A stretch of DNA of 64,000 nucleotides from Marinomonas sp. SBI8L (lineage in GTDB: Bacteria > Pseudomonadota > Gammaproteobacteria > Pseudomonadales > Marinomonadaceae), in contig NZ_JSEO01000007.1 of the NCBI RefSeq assembly GCF_001624705.1, forward strand, positions 223,624-287,623. Reading direction: 5' to 3'. Each line of letters starts with the position of its first letter. Within the stretch, counting starts at the first letter, position 1. This document shows positions 19,627 through 26,822 of the stretch, one piece after another. The notes beneath the pieces were generated by a model. The model did no database searches. It saw only the letters and a program-made list of their open reading frames with translations, and was not told the origin of the DNA. The position numbers were made by a program, and so were the translations under genes.

Positions 19627-20709
19627 ATGTCTCGTGTTTATAATTTCTGTTCTGGTCCTGCTGCTTTGCCTGAAGCTGTTTTAGTAAAGGCGCAACGTGA
19701 AATACTAGATTGGCACGGAGTTGGAATGTCGGTGATGGAAATGAGTCACCGTAGTAAAGAGTTTGTATCTGTTTTGGAGTCAGCTAAACAGAACTTGATT
19801 AAGTTACTTGATATTCCAGAAAATTATGAAGTGCTGTTTATGCAAGGTGGTGCATCGACTTTGTTTGCACAAATTCCTGCTAATTTAACGCCTGGTTATG
19901 AGTCTGCTTGTTATTTGGATACAGGAGTTTGGTCTGCAAAAGCGATCAAAGAAGCTGCTAAATATACAAAAGTGGATGTTGTAGCTTCTTCAAAAGATTC
20001 AAACTACCAGACAGTGCCGGCTTTCGATGGTCTACAAATTGATGAATCTGCATCATATCTTCACATTACTCCCAATGAAACCATTGGTGGTTTAGAATTT
20101 GCTGATTTACCAGAAACTGACTTGCCTATTGTTGCAGACCTTTCTTCAACGATTCTGTCTCGTAAAATTGATGTGAGCCGTTATGGATTAATTTATGCGG
20201 GTGCCCAGAAAAACATTGGTCCTGCAGGTGTTGTTGTTGTCATTATTCGTAAGGACCTGTTAGCGCGAAGCCAAGATAGTCTGCCAACAACATGGAACTT
20301 TGCCAAAATTGCTGAAAATGGCTCTATGGTAAACACGCCTCCAACTTACAGTATTTACTTGGCAAATCTGGTTTTTGAATGGTTGCTAGAGCAAGGTGGT
20401 GTTGAAGCGATTGAGCAAGTCAATATTGAAAAGGCGCGTCGTCTTTATCAGAAATTGGATTCAAGTCGTCTGTTTGCTAACAATATAGATGCTAACTACC
20501 GTTCTCGCATGAACATTCCTTTTACCTTAGCTGATGAGTCTTTGGAAAAAGCTTTCTTAGAAGAATCTGAAGCCGAAGGATTAAAAACATTGGCTGGCCA
20601 TCGATCTGTGGGTGGTATGAGGGCAAGTATTTATAATGCTATGCCAATTGAAGGTGTGACAACACTGATTGACTTTATGAATGCATTTGAGAAGAAATAC
20701 GGTTATTAA
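19627..20709 (+). CDS. serC: phosphoserine aminotransferase
   Basis: PLP enzyme converting 3-phosphohydroxypyruvate and glutamate to phosphoserine in serine synthesis, and the equivalent step in pyridoxine synthesis. The 360-residue protein starts with the SerC signature NFCSGPAALP. The PLP lysine is K195 in AGAQKNIGPAG. The C-terminus has the family pattern GHRSVGGMRASIYNAM. It heads the aromatic amino-acid group, as in pseudomonads. Start ATG at 19627. Confidence 0.97.
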   Translation: MSRVYNFCSGPAALPEAVLVKAQREILDWHGVGMSVMEMSHRSKEFVSVLESAKQNLIKLLDIPENYEVLFMQGGASTLFAQIPANLTPGYESACYLDTGVWSAKAIKEAAKYTKVDVVASSKDSNYQTVPAFDGLQIDESASYLHITPNETIGGLEFADLPETDLPIVADLSSTILSRKIDVSRYGLIYAGAQKNIGPAGVVVVIIRKDLLARSQDSLPTTWNFAKIAENGSMVNTPPTYSIYLANLVFEWLLEQGGVEAIEQVNIEKARRLYQKLDSSRLFANNIDANYRSRMNIPFTLADESLEKAFLEESEAEGLKTLAGHRSVGGMRASIYNAMPIEGVTTLIDFMNAFEKKYGY

Positions 20710-20823
20710 AATAGTTTGCACTTGTGTGGGCTTTGCAAAGTATTTTTGAAGAATAAGTGAGTGCCGAGTAGGCATCAAACGAGCCGTAAGAGCTCGAGAA
20801 CTAATGAAAGGTTGCTAGAGAAC

Positions 20824-21945
20824 GTGCCAAAAAATAATACAAATGTACCAGATACTTTGCCTTTATTAAGGGATCGTATTGATGCGATAGATACTGAAAT
20901 ACAAGCATTGATTAATGAGCGTGCCCAGTGTGCGCAGAAAGTAGCAGATGTTAAATTGTCAGAACAGGGGGATGAAGCGGTTGTCTTCTATCGTCCTGAA
21001 CGGGAAGCGCAGGTTTTACGTCGTGTGATGGAGCGTAATAAGGGGCCGTTAGGTAATGAAGAGATGGCGAAAATTTTTCGTCAGGTAATGTCTTCATGTC
21101 TTGCCCTTGAAAAACCTATGCGCATTGCCTTTTTAGGGCCTGAAGGTACCTTTACTCAACAGGCAGCGATTAAGCACTTTGGACGCTCTATTATTAGTGC
21201 GCCAATGGCAGCGATTGATGAAGTATTTCGTGAGGTTGAATCTAGTGCAGCTAACTATGGGGTTGTGCCAGTAGAGAACTCAACCGAGGGTGTGGTTAAT
21301 CATACCTTAGACAGTTTTAGAGACTCTACATTAAAAATCTGTGGTGAAGTTGAATTGCGTATTCATCATCACTTGTTAGTTGCTCCTAATATTGATGCTG
21401 AAAAAATTACTCATATTTATTCTCATCAGCAGTCTTTGGCACAATGTCGCGCTTGGCTTGATAGATATTGGCCTCATGCAGAGCGTATTGCCGTTAACTC
21501 TAATGCCGAAGCGGCTAAAATGGTAGCCGATGCGGCGCAAAAAGGGGCAGCGATTGCGGCTATCGCAGGGGATATTGCCAGCGAACTTTACTCTTTAACT
21601 AAGCTGTCTTCCAATATTGAAGATCACCCTGATAATACCACTCGATTTTTGATGATAGGGCATCAAGATGTATTGCCAAGCGGTAAGGATAAAACCTCTT
21701 TGCTGATTAGTGCTAAAAATGAGCCGGGTGCCTTATATAAGCTATTGGAACCATTTCAGAAGCATAATGTCAGTATGACCCGATTAGAAACTCGTCCATC
21801 TCTTATGAGTCGTTGGGGCTATATTTTTTATATCGATTTTGAAGGTCATGCTGATGAAGGAAGTTCTGTTGCTGTGATCAAAGATCTAGAGAAGCGGGCA
21901 TCAGAAGTGAAGGTGTTAGGATCTTATCCGATCGCTGTTCTTTAA
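20824..21945 (+). CDS. pheA: chorismate mutase / prephenate dehydratase (P-protein)
   Basis: Bifunctional enzyme converting chorismate to prephenate and then to phenylpyruvate. The AroQ-type mutase domain covers about residues 10-95. The prephenate dehydratase domain at about 100-285 begins RIAFLGPEGTFTQQAA and carries the catalytic TRF motif (NTTRFLMIG). An ACT domain for phenylalanine feedback follows (GALYKLLEPF and LETRPS). The frame is open from a GTG at 20761, but that adds 21 basic residues unlike the family. The GTG at 20824 gives 373 residues in line with pseudomonad PheA. Neither start has a strong ribosome site, so the start is uncertain. Confidence 0.92.
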   Translation: MPKNNTNVPDTLPLLRDRIDAIDTEIQALINERAQCAQKVADVKLSEQGDEAVVFYRPEREAQVLRRVMERNKGPLGNEEMAKIFRQVMSSCLALEKPMRIAFLGPEGTFTQQAAIKHFGRSIISAPMAAIDEVFREVESSAANYGVVPVENSTEGVVNHTLDSFRDSTLKICGEVELRIHHHLLVAPNIDAEKITHIYSHQQSLAQCRAWLDRYWPHAERIAVNSNAEAAKMVADAAQKGAAIAAIAGDIASELYSLTKLSSNIEDHPDNTTRFLMIGHQDVLPSGKDKTSLLISAKNEPGALYKLLEPFQKHNVSMTRLETRPSLMSRWGYIFYIDFEGHADEGSSVAVIKDLEKRASEVKVLGSYPIAVL

Positions 21946-21988
21946 CTGTATTTATCAATGCCGTTTTTTATAAGGTGGCAAATTTAAT

Positions 21989-24271
21989 TTGAAGTATAAG
22001 GTGTTTACGTTGTCTGAGTTGCAATCCAATCAGTTTGAAAAAGCTGATGAGCATTTTGGTAATGTGTTAATTGTTGGTTTGGGCATGATAGGTGGCTCAG
22101 TTGCTAAGGCATTAAAAGAACGCGGTCTTGCTTATCTATTTGGTTCTGATCGACGCCATGATGAACTGACATTGGGTGTTGCAACTCATGTAATTGATTT
22201 TGAAGCTGAGCTAGATGCTGAGTTTATTGAAAAAATGGACGTCATTCTTCTGGCGACGCCAGTAAGAGCGATGGAGGTTGTGCTCGAACAGATAAAGCCT
22301 TTTTTATTGGATACCACCTTAGTAACAGATGTAGGTTCGACTAAGGGGAGTGTTGTTGAGGCGGCAAGAAAGGTGTTTGGTTCCGTACCTGCGAACTTTA
22401 TTCCTGGGCATCCTATTGCAGGGGCTGAAAAAAGTGGTGTCTTAGCTGCTAACCCCAATCTATTCGAAAATCATAAGGTTATTGTTACACCTTTACCCAA
22501 CAGTGATGCATTGTTAGTTGATAAGCTTCACAGGATGTGGACTGCAATTGGTGCTGATGTGGTAAGTATGGATGTGACGCATCATGACCATGTTCTTGCT
22601 GGTTCTAGTCACTTGCCTCATTTACTTGCTTATACTCTGGTTGATGCATTGGCTAACAGTGAGCGTAGTCAGGATGTATTTAGATTTGCAGCAGGTGGGT
22701 TTAGAGATTTTACTCGTATCGCTTCAAGTGATCCTATTATGTGGCGAGATGTCTTCTTGGCAAATAAGGATGCGACTCTTGAGTCTTTAGATTCTTTTAC
22801 TGAGCATTTACAACAACTGAGACATTCTATTGAAGTGGGTGATGGGCCTGCGATGTTTGGTGTATTTACTCGAGCAAAATCTGCGCGAGATCATTTTTTG
22901 CGTTTATTAGAGGCGAGATCATCTTCAAGCGCTTCGACTGTAAAGCCTATTTCTATTAAGGTATTGCCCGCTTCACTGGTGAAAGGTGAGATTAATGTGC
23001 GCGGTGACAAATTTCTGTCACATAGTCTGATTACTATGGCTGCCCTTAGTGAAGGGGTAAGTGAATTCTCGAACCTTGATATGGGTCAGGGGGTCAAAGT
23101 GACCTTGCAAGCTCTGCGAGATATGGGGGTTGTTGTTGAGGATTTTGGTGGTCAACGTATTCGCATTCATGGTGTTGGCTTAAATGGCTTAAAAGCACCT
23201 ATTGCCCCGATTAATGTGCATGAATCCGAGTTAAGCTTACATGTGTTGCTGCCAGTGCTTGCTGCGCAAAAGTTTGCTGTTACCTTTGTTGCTGAAGGGG
23301 CTTTAAGCTCACAGCCTTTTGTAGATTTACTCTCGATTGTTAAGGTAATGGGAGCAAGTGTGACGACTTCTGAGTCTGGATGCTTACCTTTTACGATAGC
23401 AACAGAAAATCAATTGATAAATCAGTATAAAATTGATGTTAAAGGGCGCTCAAGGCAGTTAAAATTAGCCGCGCTAATTGCTGGGGTGATGAGTCAAAAA
23501 AATGTTGAGCTGAATTTGCCGAGGGATTTAGATGGCAGTGATGCTGTTTTATCTCTGTTTTCGTGTGAGCAGGATGTTCGTACTAACGACAAGGGTGACA
23601 ACATACTTGCTGTAAAGCAGGGGCAGAAGCCACAGGCTGCAAGTCTAGATGTGCCTGCAGATGACAATAAAACAGCTTGGTTAACATTATTGGCATGTTT
23701 ATCTCCTGGGTCTAAGTTGATGATTAATAATGCTGGCATTACTCAAATGAACTCAGCATTTTTAAAAGTTCTGCTAGCAAATGGCGCCAATATTGAATTG
23801 CACAATGTTAACGAAGATCAGCCGCTTACTGTGTCTGAAGGCAAAATTAAAGTTGGGTTTGCTGCTTTCTCTGGCTTTACAATAAAAGAATCAGAGATTT
23901 TATCAGTTTGTAGCGAATTGCTACTACTGTGTGTTGCAGCTGTGTACGCCAAAGGTACCAGTAGAATCGAAGGAATACATAGCTTGCCCTATCGCTGGGA
24001 AGATAGAGTGACAACCTTTGTCGATGCTTTAACTATTATAGGTGTGCCATGCAGTTTACAAGCTGGTGTGCTGGAGATCGAAGGTTGCATTCCTTGTGGT
24101 GGGGAGCTGGATAGTGCGGGCGATTACCATTTAAGTTTAGCTATGTTGGCTTTGGGTATGCGCAGCCGTAGTCCTGTGACAGTAAATGATTGTCACAAGT
24201 TGTTAGAAGAATTTGAAGAGTTTGAAACTATTGTTGAGTCATTAGGCTTTCATTGCCAACTTACTCAATAA
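21989..24271 (+). CDS. tyrA: TyrA-AroA fusion: prephenate dehydrogenase with a degenerate EPSP-synthase-like domain
   Basis: The N-terminal part (about residues 22-310) is a normal prephenate dehydrogenase: NAD-binding [32 protein letters not shown] and [16 protein letters not shown] are all intact. A Ser/Ala linker leads to an EPSP-synthase-like domain at about 325-755. That architecture is normal in pseudomonads, but here the second domain has lost most active-site residues. K341 (E. coli Lys22) remains, but the neighbouring Ser23 and Arg27 are Phe and Ser; the NAGTAMR loop is replaced by HESELSLH; Arg124 is Ala; catalytic Asp313 is Ser642; Lys340-Glu341 are Arg-Trp; His385-Arg386 are Tyr713-His714. 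The frame is fully open, so this is a pseudoenzyme rather than a broken gene. The start is TTG with AAGGTGG upstream. No hisC lies before it. Confidence 0.9.
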
Positions 24272-24287: not shown

Positions 24288-24971
24288 ATGATCAATCAGG
24301 CACCTATCATCACAATAGATGGTCCGAGTGGCGCTGGTAAGGGCACTGTGAGTCAGGTAATTGCTGATAAACTAGGCTGGAATCTATTGGATAGTGGTGC
24401 GTTGTATCGCCTATTAGCACTTGCTGCTGCCCATCATGGGATGGCGATGGACGATGCTGACACATTAAAAGTTTTAGCTGAACACTTGGATGTTCAATTT
24501 CGTCACGGAGAAAATGGCGAAACAGAAATCGTGCTAGAAGGCGAGAATGTGACTCAAGCAATTCGCACGGAAGTGGTTGGTAATAATGCCTCTAAACTTG
24601 CTGCTATTCCGGAAGTGCGTGAAGGTTTGCTTCTACGTCAACATGCGTTTGCCCATGAGCCAGGTTTAGTGGCGGATGGAAGAGATATGGGGACAATCGT
24701 ATTTCCTGATGCGCCAGTTAAGGTTTTTTTAACAGCTAGTGCTGAAGAACGCGCAAACCGTCGCTTCCTTCAATTGAAAGCGAAGGGCGAGAGTGTTAAT
24801 ATTGAAGAATTAGTGAGCACCATTCAAGAAAGAGACGAGCGTGATGCAAATCGTGCCGTTGCCCCTCTAGTGCCGGCAGTCGGCGCCTTGGTTGTTGACA
24901 GTACAGATCAATCCATAGAACAGGTCGTTGAATCTATTCTTGCCGAAGTGGCAAAGAAGGGTATTAACTGA
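24288..24971 (+). CDS. cmk: cytidylate kinase
   Basis: Phosphorylates CMP and dCMP using ATP. The P-loop GPSGAGKGT lies at 12-20. LLDSGALYR, the substrate-binding [13 protein letters not shown] and [10 protein letters not shown] are classical Cmk elements. Length 227 residues, as usual. The ATG at 24288 follows AAGAGAGGAAAG, an excellent ribosome site 17 bases after the upstream stop, so it is translated from the same message as the tyrA-aroA fusion. rpsA follows. Confidence 0.97.
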
Positions 24972-25136
24972 TCTGTTTTTTGGCGTTAATGACGCTATAC
25001 TTTAAAGCGTTTGTAACAAATTATCCCTGAGATAGGCGCCAGCAAAGTCTATCTCGCACTTTTTTAAAATTGACCCGTGTTTGCTGGCAATGCGGTTACA
25101 GTATGGTTTATCCATGCTTACTTAATAGGAAATACA

Positions 25137-26822
25137 ATGACTCAAAGCTTCGCTGAACTGTTTGAAGAAAGCTTGTTAACCGTCGAAATGGCGCCAGGCT
25201 CAATTGTTACCGGTATTATTGTTGATATCGACAATGAATGGGTAACTGTTCATGCAGGTCTTAAATCTGAAGGTGTTATTCCTCGTTCTCAGTTCCTATC
25301 TGAAAGCGGTGAATTCACTCTTAATATCGGCGACGAAGTAAAAGTTGCTCTAGACGCAGTAGAAGATGGTTTCGGTGAAACTAAGCTTTCTCGTGAGAAA
25401 GCTAAGCGTGCTGAGACTTGGGAAGTTCTTGAGAAAGCATACGAAGACAGCGAAATCGTTGTTGGTGTTATTAACGGTAAAGTTAAAGGTGGTTTCACCG
25501 TTGACATCGCTAATATCCGTGCTTTCCTACCTGGTTCCTTGGTTGACGTTCGTCCGATCCGTGACACTTCTCACCTAGAAGGTGTTGATCTAGAGTTTAA
25601 ACTTATCAAACTTGATCAAAAACGTAACAACGTTGTTGTATCTCGTCGTGCCGTTATGGAAGCGACAAACAGCGCTGAACGCGAAACATTGCTTGCTTCT
25701 CTAGAAGAAGGTCAAGAAGTTAAAGGTATCGTTAAGAACCTTACTGACTACGGTGCATTCGTTGATCTTGGTGGTGTTGACGGTCTTCTACACATCACTG
25801 ACATGGCTTGGAAACGCATTAAGCACCCAAGCGAAATCATTGCTGTTGGTGATGAAATCGACGTTAAAGTACTTAAGTTCGACCGTGAGCGTAACCGCGT
25901 ATCTCTAGGTCTTAAGCAATTGGGTGAAGATCCATGGGTAGCAATCAAAGCCCGTTACCCAGAAGGTACTAAAGTAACTGCTAAGGTTACTAACCTAACT
26001 GACTACGGTTGCTTCGCAGAACTTGAAGAAGGTGTTGAAGGTCTTGTTCACGTTTCTGAAATGGATTGGACAAACAAGAACATCCACCCATCAAAAGTTG
26101 TTCAAATTGGTGATGAAGTAGAAGTTATGATCCTAGACATCGACGAAGAACGTCGTCGTATTTCTCTAGGTGTTAAACAGTGTACTCCTAATCCATGGGA
26201 AGAGTTCGCTACTTCTTACAACAAAGGCGACAAGATTTCTGGTGGCATCAAGTCTATCACTGACTTCGGTGTATTCATCGGTCTTGAAGGCGGTATCGAC
26301 GGTCTTGTACACCTATCTGACCTATCTTGGGATGAGACTGGTGAAGAAGCAGTTCGTCAATACAAGAAAGGTGATAACCTTGAAACTGTTGTATTGTCTA
26401 TCGATGCTGAACGTGAGCGTATTTCTTTGGGTGTTAAACAACTTGAAGAAGACCCATTTGTTGGCTTCGCAGCTGAAAACGACAAAGGCGCTATCGTAAC
26501 TGGTACCGTTAAAGAAGTTGATGCTAAAGGCGCAGTAGTTGTTCTAGCTGAAGGTGTTGAAGCAACACTTAAAGTATCTGAGCTAAGCCGTGACCGTGTT
26601 GAAGATGCAACTTCTGTATTGAAAGAAGGTGATTCTGTTGAAGCTGCTGTGATCAATGTTGATCGTAAAGCTCGCACTATCGCTCTTTCTATCAAGCAGA
26701 AAGATGCTTCTGAAGAGAAAGCAGCAATGAAGACTCATTCAGAGAAAGCAGCACAAGTTGAAGCAAATGGTCCTACCACTATCGGTGATTTGATCAAAGC
26801 TCAACTAGAAAACCAAAACTAA
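25137..26822 (+). CDS. rpsA: 30S ribosomal protein S1
   Basis: RNA-binding ribosomal protein needed to start translation on most messages. The 561 residues contain six S1 (OB-fold) repeats, with repeated signatures such as [19 protein letters not shown] and [19 protein letters not shown]. The ATG at 25137 with TAGGAA upstream gives the family N-terminus [13 protein letters not shown]; an in-frame start 60 bases earlier is not credible. Codon use is markedly different from neighbours (many GGT, CGT, AAC, TTC, CTA codons), typical of highly expressed genes. The 165-base leader may carry a promoter (TATACT at 24996) and the autoregulatory region known in other species. The ihfB gene that follows in pseudomonads is absent. 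Confidence 0.98.

Follow-up and report, generated by a model that had tools for sequence, protein, structure and literature searches.

A fused EPSP synthase domain without its catalytic residues is probably retained as a pseudoenzyme appendage of TyrA in Marinomonas

The window analysed here is a stretch of 64,000 nucleotides from Marinomonas sp. SBI8L. It contains a tyrA-aroA fusion gene on the forward strand (21989..24271), which the ORF list of the window gives as one exact frame of 760 amino acids with a TTG start. The sequence AAGGTGG stands 5' of this TTG, and a GTG at 22001 is an alternative start. In the protein, Pfam places PDH_N at residues 38–192, PDH_C (Pfam's dimerization domain) at 197–292 and PF00275 at 329–746. 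The gene can thus be divided into a TyrA (prephenate/cyclohexadienyl dehydrogenase) domain (residues 24–300, 22058..22888), a linker that fills the gap between the Pfam domains (residues 301–323, 22889..22957) and a domain with the EPSP synthase fold (residues 324–758, 22958..24262). The TyrA domain is normal; columns invariant in 78 aligned fusions include H141, P142, A144, G145, S207–H211, R243 and W252. The match to PF00275 scores 141.7 bits against a cut-off of 22.8, so the fold profile is present. The fusion protein falls below the cut-offs of the aroA family TIGR01356 (169.2 versus 287.25) and of the NCBIfam bifunctional equivalog PRK14806 (788.2 versus 902).

The neighbouring genes are on the same strand, and from the ORF list and gene order we take them to be serC (19627..20709), a part of the ancestral supra-operon context, pheA (chorismate mutase/prephenate dehydratase, 20761..21945) upstream, and cmk (24288..24971) and rpsA (25077..26822) downstream. 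The order gyrA serC pheA tyrA-aroA cmk rpsA was found in 32/32 loci tested in the genus; these are 19 + 13 loci from sets that share genomes, and so represent fewer than 32 genomes. A Pseudomonas aeruginosa record has the order serC-pheA-hisC-fusion-cmk-rpsA. Because this neighbourhood largely matches, the fused AroA domain is most likely an old copy that has been vertically inherited. Unlike in the P. aeruginosa cluster, hisC is absent between pheA and tyrA in the window (20761–24271). Loss of hisHb from the supra-operon cluster of some Pseudomonas is described in the available text of Song et al. 2005 (PMC1173090).

The fused domain was aligned with E. coli AroA, which served as the reference, using MAFFT, and residues were mapped between the two. 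We scored the 18 residues common to the AroA proteins of E. coli, P. aeruginosa and A. baumannii, which we take to be active-site residues of EPSP synthase. The working fusions of P. aeruginosa and A. baumannii, the type covered by PRK14806, have the same domain order and, in the P. aeruginosa record, largely the same neighbourhood; they carry 18/18 of these residues, whereas the window gene, which is below the equivalog cut-off, carries 5/18. The five are K22 (K341 in the window protein), S169 (S488), Q171 (Q490), R344 (R673) and D384 (D712). The catalytic and substrate-binding residues are presumably K22, R27, R124, D313, K340, E341, H385 and R386 (letters checked in E. coli AroA), and of these the window protein keeps K22 only.

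The losses are spread along the domain. The former shikimate-3-phosphate site reads GDKFLSHS (23003..23026), in which K22 is kept, S23 is F342 and R27 is S346. In the former PEP loop (23198..23254) N94–R100 are replaced by ESELSLH (412–418). R124 corresponds to Q442 and S170 to R489. The catalytic D313 is replaced by S642 (23912..23914) and N336 by S665. Where WRVKETDR is expected the protein has LPYRWEDR (23984..24007), in which R669–W670 stand at K340–E341. Finally, D384-H385-R386 read DYH (24122..24130), with Y713–H714 in the last two places, and K411 is E740.

HMMER, run independently of MAFFT against 5bs5, the solved EPSP synthase of A. baumannii, pairs the same blocks, and a profile of the genus matches 5bs5 with an E-value of 7.8e-78. 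An alignment artefact is ruled out by this agreement: neither the MAFFT nor the HMMER alignment, the profile check that the first-pass annotation had proposed, restores the catalytic residues. That annotation had listed active-site substitutions read by eye, and all of its letters are correct except that at R124, which is Gln442 and not Ala. Its description of a normal TyrA half in a frame open to the end is borne out by the exact ORF and by PDH_N and PDH_C. A murA-type reassignment of the domain is ruled out, murA being a separate gene and the window protein reaching only 40.6 bits against TIGR01072. Judged from these alignments, the fold is retained and the catalytic residues are gone, which fits a pseudoenzyme domain.

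A second, functional aroA had been predicted elsewhere in the genome. Three genes with PF00275 lie in the source assembly (5.19 Mb, 69 contigs, 99.98% complete): the fusion, one murA and one stand-alone aroA. The latter is complete (C56:162792-164081, 430 amino acids) with 18/18 sites intact. A stand-alone aroA is present in 48/49 genomes of the genus and is a single intact frame in 47/49, and all 47 intact proteins match the E. coli letter at each of 25 sites checked. In a tree of 41 AroA sequences E. coli AroA nests inside the stand-alone clade of the genus (support 0.60), far from fused AroA. Two genomes are exceptions. No stand-alone aroA was found in G042, whose genome is 77% complete. 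In G027 the gene (L101, G027:C45:83106-86331) is split over two frames of 188 and 316 amino acids, which keeps it out of the 47-row counts, and the fused copy belongs to the decayed set; the split is probably a draft-assembly error, and otherwise the strain would be an auxotroph.

The fusion is full length, in frame and open to its end in 49/49 genomes examined in the genus, and a search across the family returned the identical 49 genomes. M99, R100, K340, E341 and H385 are kept in 0/49 fused copies, R124 in 10/49 and D313 in 18/49. With R100, K340, E341 and H385 lost in every member, chance can be set aside. Recurrence of the losses in 49/49 genomes also rules out a sequencing or assembly artefact. 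Some other sites are mostly retained: K22 in 47/49, R344 in 48/49, S169 in 42/49 and D384 in 41/49. At positions 94, 96, 97, 124, 313 and 386 no single replacement is common to the genus copies. Among the matches listed, the named genomes with the pseudo-domain belong to Marinomonas (at least 12 loci) and Maribrevibacterium (at least one locus), and all 13 of these loci have 4–8 of the 18 sites. The remaining 67/80 loci among these matches score 17 or 18 and come from Pseudomonas, Marinobacter, Neptuniibacter, Salinicola and others; four of them lie in frames of 448–485 amino acids and are hence not fused in one frame. Of the clades examined, Marinomonas is the largest to keep a deeply decayed domain at full length.

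The dN/dS of the domain across relatives, another check suggested at first pass, points to purifying selection. Maximum likelihood codon models on 47 genomes (G042 and G027 set aside in the joint tree and omega runs) put omega at 0.091 in the pseudo-domain, compared with 0.024 in TyrA and 0.029 in stand-alone AroA, values that rest on synonymous sites saturated across the genus. Fixing omega at 1 (kappa fixed at 2) lowered the log-likelihood from -42124 to -46428, a cost of 4304 log units. By segment, omega is 0.054 for residues 324–440, 0.096 for 441–640 and 0.085 for 641–758. Pairwise NG86 estimates were used as a check on saturation, counting a pair as unsaturated where dS is 0.05–1.2 in all three parts; 17/1081 pairs qualified, the other 1064 being saturated, too close or not computable, and the pseudo-domain omega is 0.05–0.12 in 17/17 of them. 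A pseudogene under drift is ruled out by these low values, including the 17/17 unsaturated pairs below 0.13. In Marinomonas the data give no backing to the proposal that TyrA relies on the C-terminal lobe alone, the N-terminal segment (omega 0.054) being the most constrained there.

The pseudo-domain nevertheless evolves faster than its partner. Median identity in the genus is 46% for the pseudo-domain, 82% for TyrA and 87% for stand-alone AroA. Among fusions of the order (49 sequences, of which L107 and L141 are partly decayed) the AroA part is more conserved than TyrA in 1083/1176 pairs, and in the genus this holds in 0/1176 pairs. The relaxation of the pseudo-domain relative to TyrA is real. 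That the AroA-like half is dead yet preserved, the central claim of the first-pass annotation, is well supported by the 5/18 sites together with purifying selection, as far as sequence can indicate activity.

What selection preserves was examined against a reference set of working AroA, comprising 47 fusions of the order (L107 and L141 removed). The hydropathy profile of the pseudo-domain tracks that of working AroA over 419 positions (r 0.73), in keeping with the earlier remark that the fold pattern remains; at the 286 positions with a changed consensus letter r is still 0.61, and controls shifted by 1–6 positions give -0.13 to 0.04. The same letter is kept at 95% in the genus at 29/162 positions that are at least 95% conserved in the 47 fusions. 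Former active-site positions are more variable than other once-invariant ones (1.64 versus 1.13 bits, n = 20 versus 142, p = 0.01). There are also 16 positions that are at least 80% conserved in the order fusions and at least 95% something else in the genus (two of these are gaps), and several of them adjoin the old pocket. The switched positions of the protein are 337, 351, 358, 362, 408–409, 417, 422, 466, 564, 658, 667, 671 and 738. Among the switched letters, L408I, Y409N, M417L and G422P fall in the former PEP loop, and R667P and S671E where the KET motif used to be, so that I408, N409, L417, P422, P667 and E671 are each at least 95% conserved in the genus, unlike in working AroA. The kept fold pattern, the new conserved letters and the variable pocket together indicate that selection maintains the fold along with some new local features, and no longer the former catalysis.

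Fusions in the order normally carry a working AroA half. At E <= 1e-100, an E. coli-like stand-alone AroA was found in 79/390 genomes of the order, 18 of them in the genus and 61 in others. Of these 61, 20 have a full-length fusion, six (one genus of family f44) have a remnant of 306–349 residues, 33 match over the TyrA part only (including G195, in a 710-aa frame) and two are without a TyrA match. The 20 full-length copies retain, of the 18 sites, 18, 18, 17, 17, 17, 16, 16, 14, 14, 13 (six copies), 12, 7, 7, 4 and 2; the last two (G377 and G531, family f6) are decayed as far as Marinomonas. By comparison, 52/53 copies from genomes outside the 79 score 17 or 18, and one copy cut by a contig end has 11/11 visible sites; all 53 presumably belong to the 390-genome sample, eight have TyrA and AroA in separate adjoining frames, and the scoring leaves aside L109 and L110, which are TyrA only. 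Decay of the fused domain thus goes with the presence of a stand-alone aroA. The link runs in one direction, since the 20 include three to five copies of intact appearance (two with 18 sites, three with 17). Beside a stand-alone aroA, a fused domain may be intact, decayed without shortening, reduced in size or absent. In two genomes of other families, G148 (L106/L225) and G055 (L145/L227), a fused AroA with 18/18 sites lies beside an intact stand-alone AroA, which is the expected starting state of decay.

If catalysis once lost is never regained, the TyrA tree requires at least 14 changes, made up of eight decays and six losses; this is a FastTree of 100 sequences with weak deep support, which includes 10/49 genus members and leaves out the other 39 and L243 (G377), whose TyrA frame did not pass the filter. 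The eight decays are spread over four families (f1 Marinomonas, f6, f37 and f44), the count for f6 being inflated by the 16/17 threshold for decay. Family f44 is a second lineage with a retained remnant. Its remnants (L255–L260, six genomes) have 1–3 of the 18 sites, a shortened middle and 20–40% identity between species. The two that match best cover profile positions 2 or 29 to 77 or 72, plus 221 or 238 to 426, and the other four match at the two ends only, some of them weakly. Their omega is 0.052, from saturated data on six sequences.

Three Pseudomonas genomes (G609, G619 and G646; loci L350, L347 and L354) have a truncated domain of the P. syringae type, in which profile positions 185/186–427 are kept. 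They also have a separate AroA-like frame of 437–450 amino acids. Among 12 other genomes examined alongside, ten have TyrA frames of 337–355 amino acids without a match to a fused AroA part, and the frames of the other two (G629 and G633) are broken. The C-terminal part is retained in each shortened case. In Marinomonas the N-terminal segment is more constrained, which gives little reason to attribute retention to one lobe. In G114, G216 and G348 (family f47) an E. coli-like aroA adjoins a stand-alone tyrA, i.e. it takes the place of the fused domain.

The nearest known case is the TyrA-AroF (EPSP synthase) fusion of P. syringae. According to the available text of Song et al. 2005 (PMC1173090), catalysis by the fused half was abandoned there beside an acquired stand-alone gene, and the authors raised the possibility of the remnant becoming a regulatory domain. 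It is the same fusion in the same order, with a dead EPSP synthase half and a stand-alone gene. As far as that text goes, the P. syringae domain has a deletion of about 200 N-terminal residues, and the stand-alone gene there belongs to a different type. The Marinomonas domain has its full length and carries point losses, a state that spans a whole genus and for which purifying selection was measured. The same text describes a degraded AroQ carried by the TyrA of Nostoc/Anabaena (PMC1173090), which is likewise a dead pathway domain on TyrA, but a chorismate mutase and not an EPSP synthase. A literature search with most subscription journals outside its range found no report of a full-length, genus-wide, selected dead EPSP synthase domain, no report on Marinomonas and no EPSP synthase pseudoenzyme. 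Within these sources the kind is already known from the truncated P. syringae domain (PMC1173090), and the full-length, genus-wide, selected variant appears to be new.

We propose that the catalytically dead EPSP synthase domain is kept as a pseudoenzyme appendage of TyrA, and would put the probability of this reading at roughly two in three. The stand-alone gene would have been there earlier, rendering the active site of the fusion redundant, with the EPSP step then carried out by the stand-alone enzyme only. The TyrA half would depend on the domain, hence its retention, and the domain would most likely be a dimer or stability scaffold for TyrA, or else an allosteric part. We infer from this a structural or allosteric role for TyrA, as the first-pass annotation had suggested. 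Some observations count against the proposal: an omega three to four times that of TyrA and a median identity of 46% would also fit slow relaxation, and other lineages with a stand-alone aroA keep TyrA alone, so TyrA does not need the domain in general.

The best parallel for a scaffold role is Candida albicans Aro1. In the available text on that protein (PMC9074039), its DHQase domain is dead through active-site changes and is compensated by the stand-alone Dqd1, and the domain mediates the homodimer; assays established the inactivity and structures the dimer. Both proteins are multi-domain proteins of the shikimate pathway with one dead domain, although the domain and the kingdom differ and the Marinomonas case is known from sequence. 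DHQase mutants, or a linker in place of the domain, gave no effect on growth or viability in the same text (PMC9074039). A structural role may thus not need to matter for growth, and retention in Aro1 is not explained by an obvious need.

The proposed appendage could take two forms. In the first, entrenchment, the domain is inactive and TyrA needs it for folding or solubility, which would be a ratchet and not a new function; we regard this form as plausible, at somewhat below even odds. It would account for the constraint over all three segments (omega 0.054, 0.096 and 0.085), for former pocket positions that vary by species and for a fold pattern that stays while letters change. The new conserved letters, I408, N409, L417 and P422 in the PEP loop and P667 and E671 in LPYxxED, suggest more than passive upkeep.

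In the second form, which we consider rather unlikely, the old pocket is a ligand-binding regulatory site that controls TyrA, for example through shikimate-3-phosphate, PEP or tyrosine. K22, R344 and D384 are mostly kept, so some ligand binding may be possible; the equivalents of K22, R344, S169 and D384 persist in 47, 48, 42 and 41 of 49 copies, and several of the 16 genus-specific conserved positions are near the old pocket. A conserved binding site is harder to reconcile with former active-site positions that are more variable than other once-invariant ones, and with the lack of a common replacement at 94, 96, 97, 124, 313 or 386. Since the old pocket varies between species, we favour a scaffold or entrenched part over a ligand-sensing role. 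A doubtful extension is that the abandoned pocket was rebuilt as a sensor, which would couple an upstream metabolite of the shikimate pathway to tyrosine synthesis by the fused TyrA. If this were true, an enzyme domain would have turned into a regulatory domain with all stages still alive in one order.

It is very improbable that the domain is a neutral leftover, functionless and merely not yet deleted. Its fast evolution (median identity 46%) and its outright loss in several related lineages fit such a leftover, but omega is 0.05–0.12 in 17/17 unsaturated pairs, 49/49 frames are open and the hydropathy pattern is preserved; were the domain free to go, a C-terminal stop would cost TyrA nothing. 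An EPSP synthase that is still active through an unusual active site is scarcely credible: the domain is full length with PF00275 above the Pfam cut-off, but the window protein has none of R27, R124, D313, K340, E341, H385 and R386, the genus copies lack K340, E341 and H385 in 49/49 cases, and the genome carries an intact stand-alone aroA.

In Marinomonas the homology label 'bifunctional prephenate dehydrogenase/EPSP synthase', if applied to this gene, would be a misannotation, with consequences for metabolic models and for research on EPSP synthase inhibitors. Pseudoenzymes are usually seen at their end point only. In this case a single gene family spans the stages within one order: an intact redundant domain (two genomes, 18/18), partial loss, a genus with a far-decayed, selected, full-length domain, shrunken remnants and loss. 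With this series one could test directly what decides whether a dead domain is retained or dropped.
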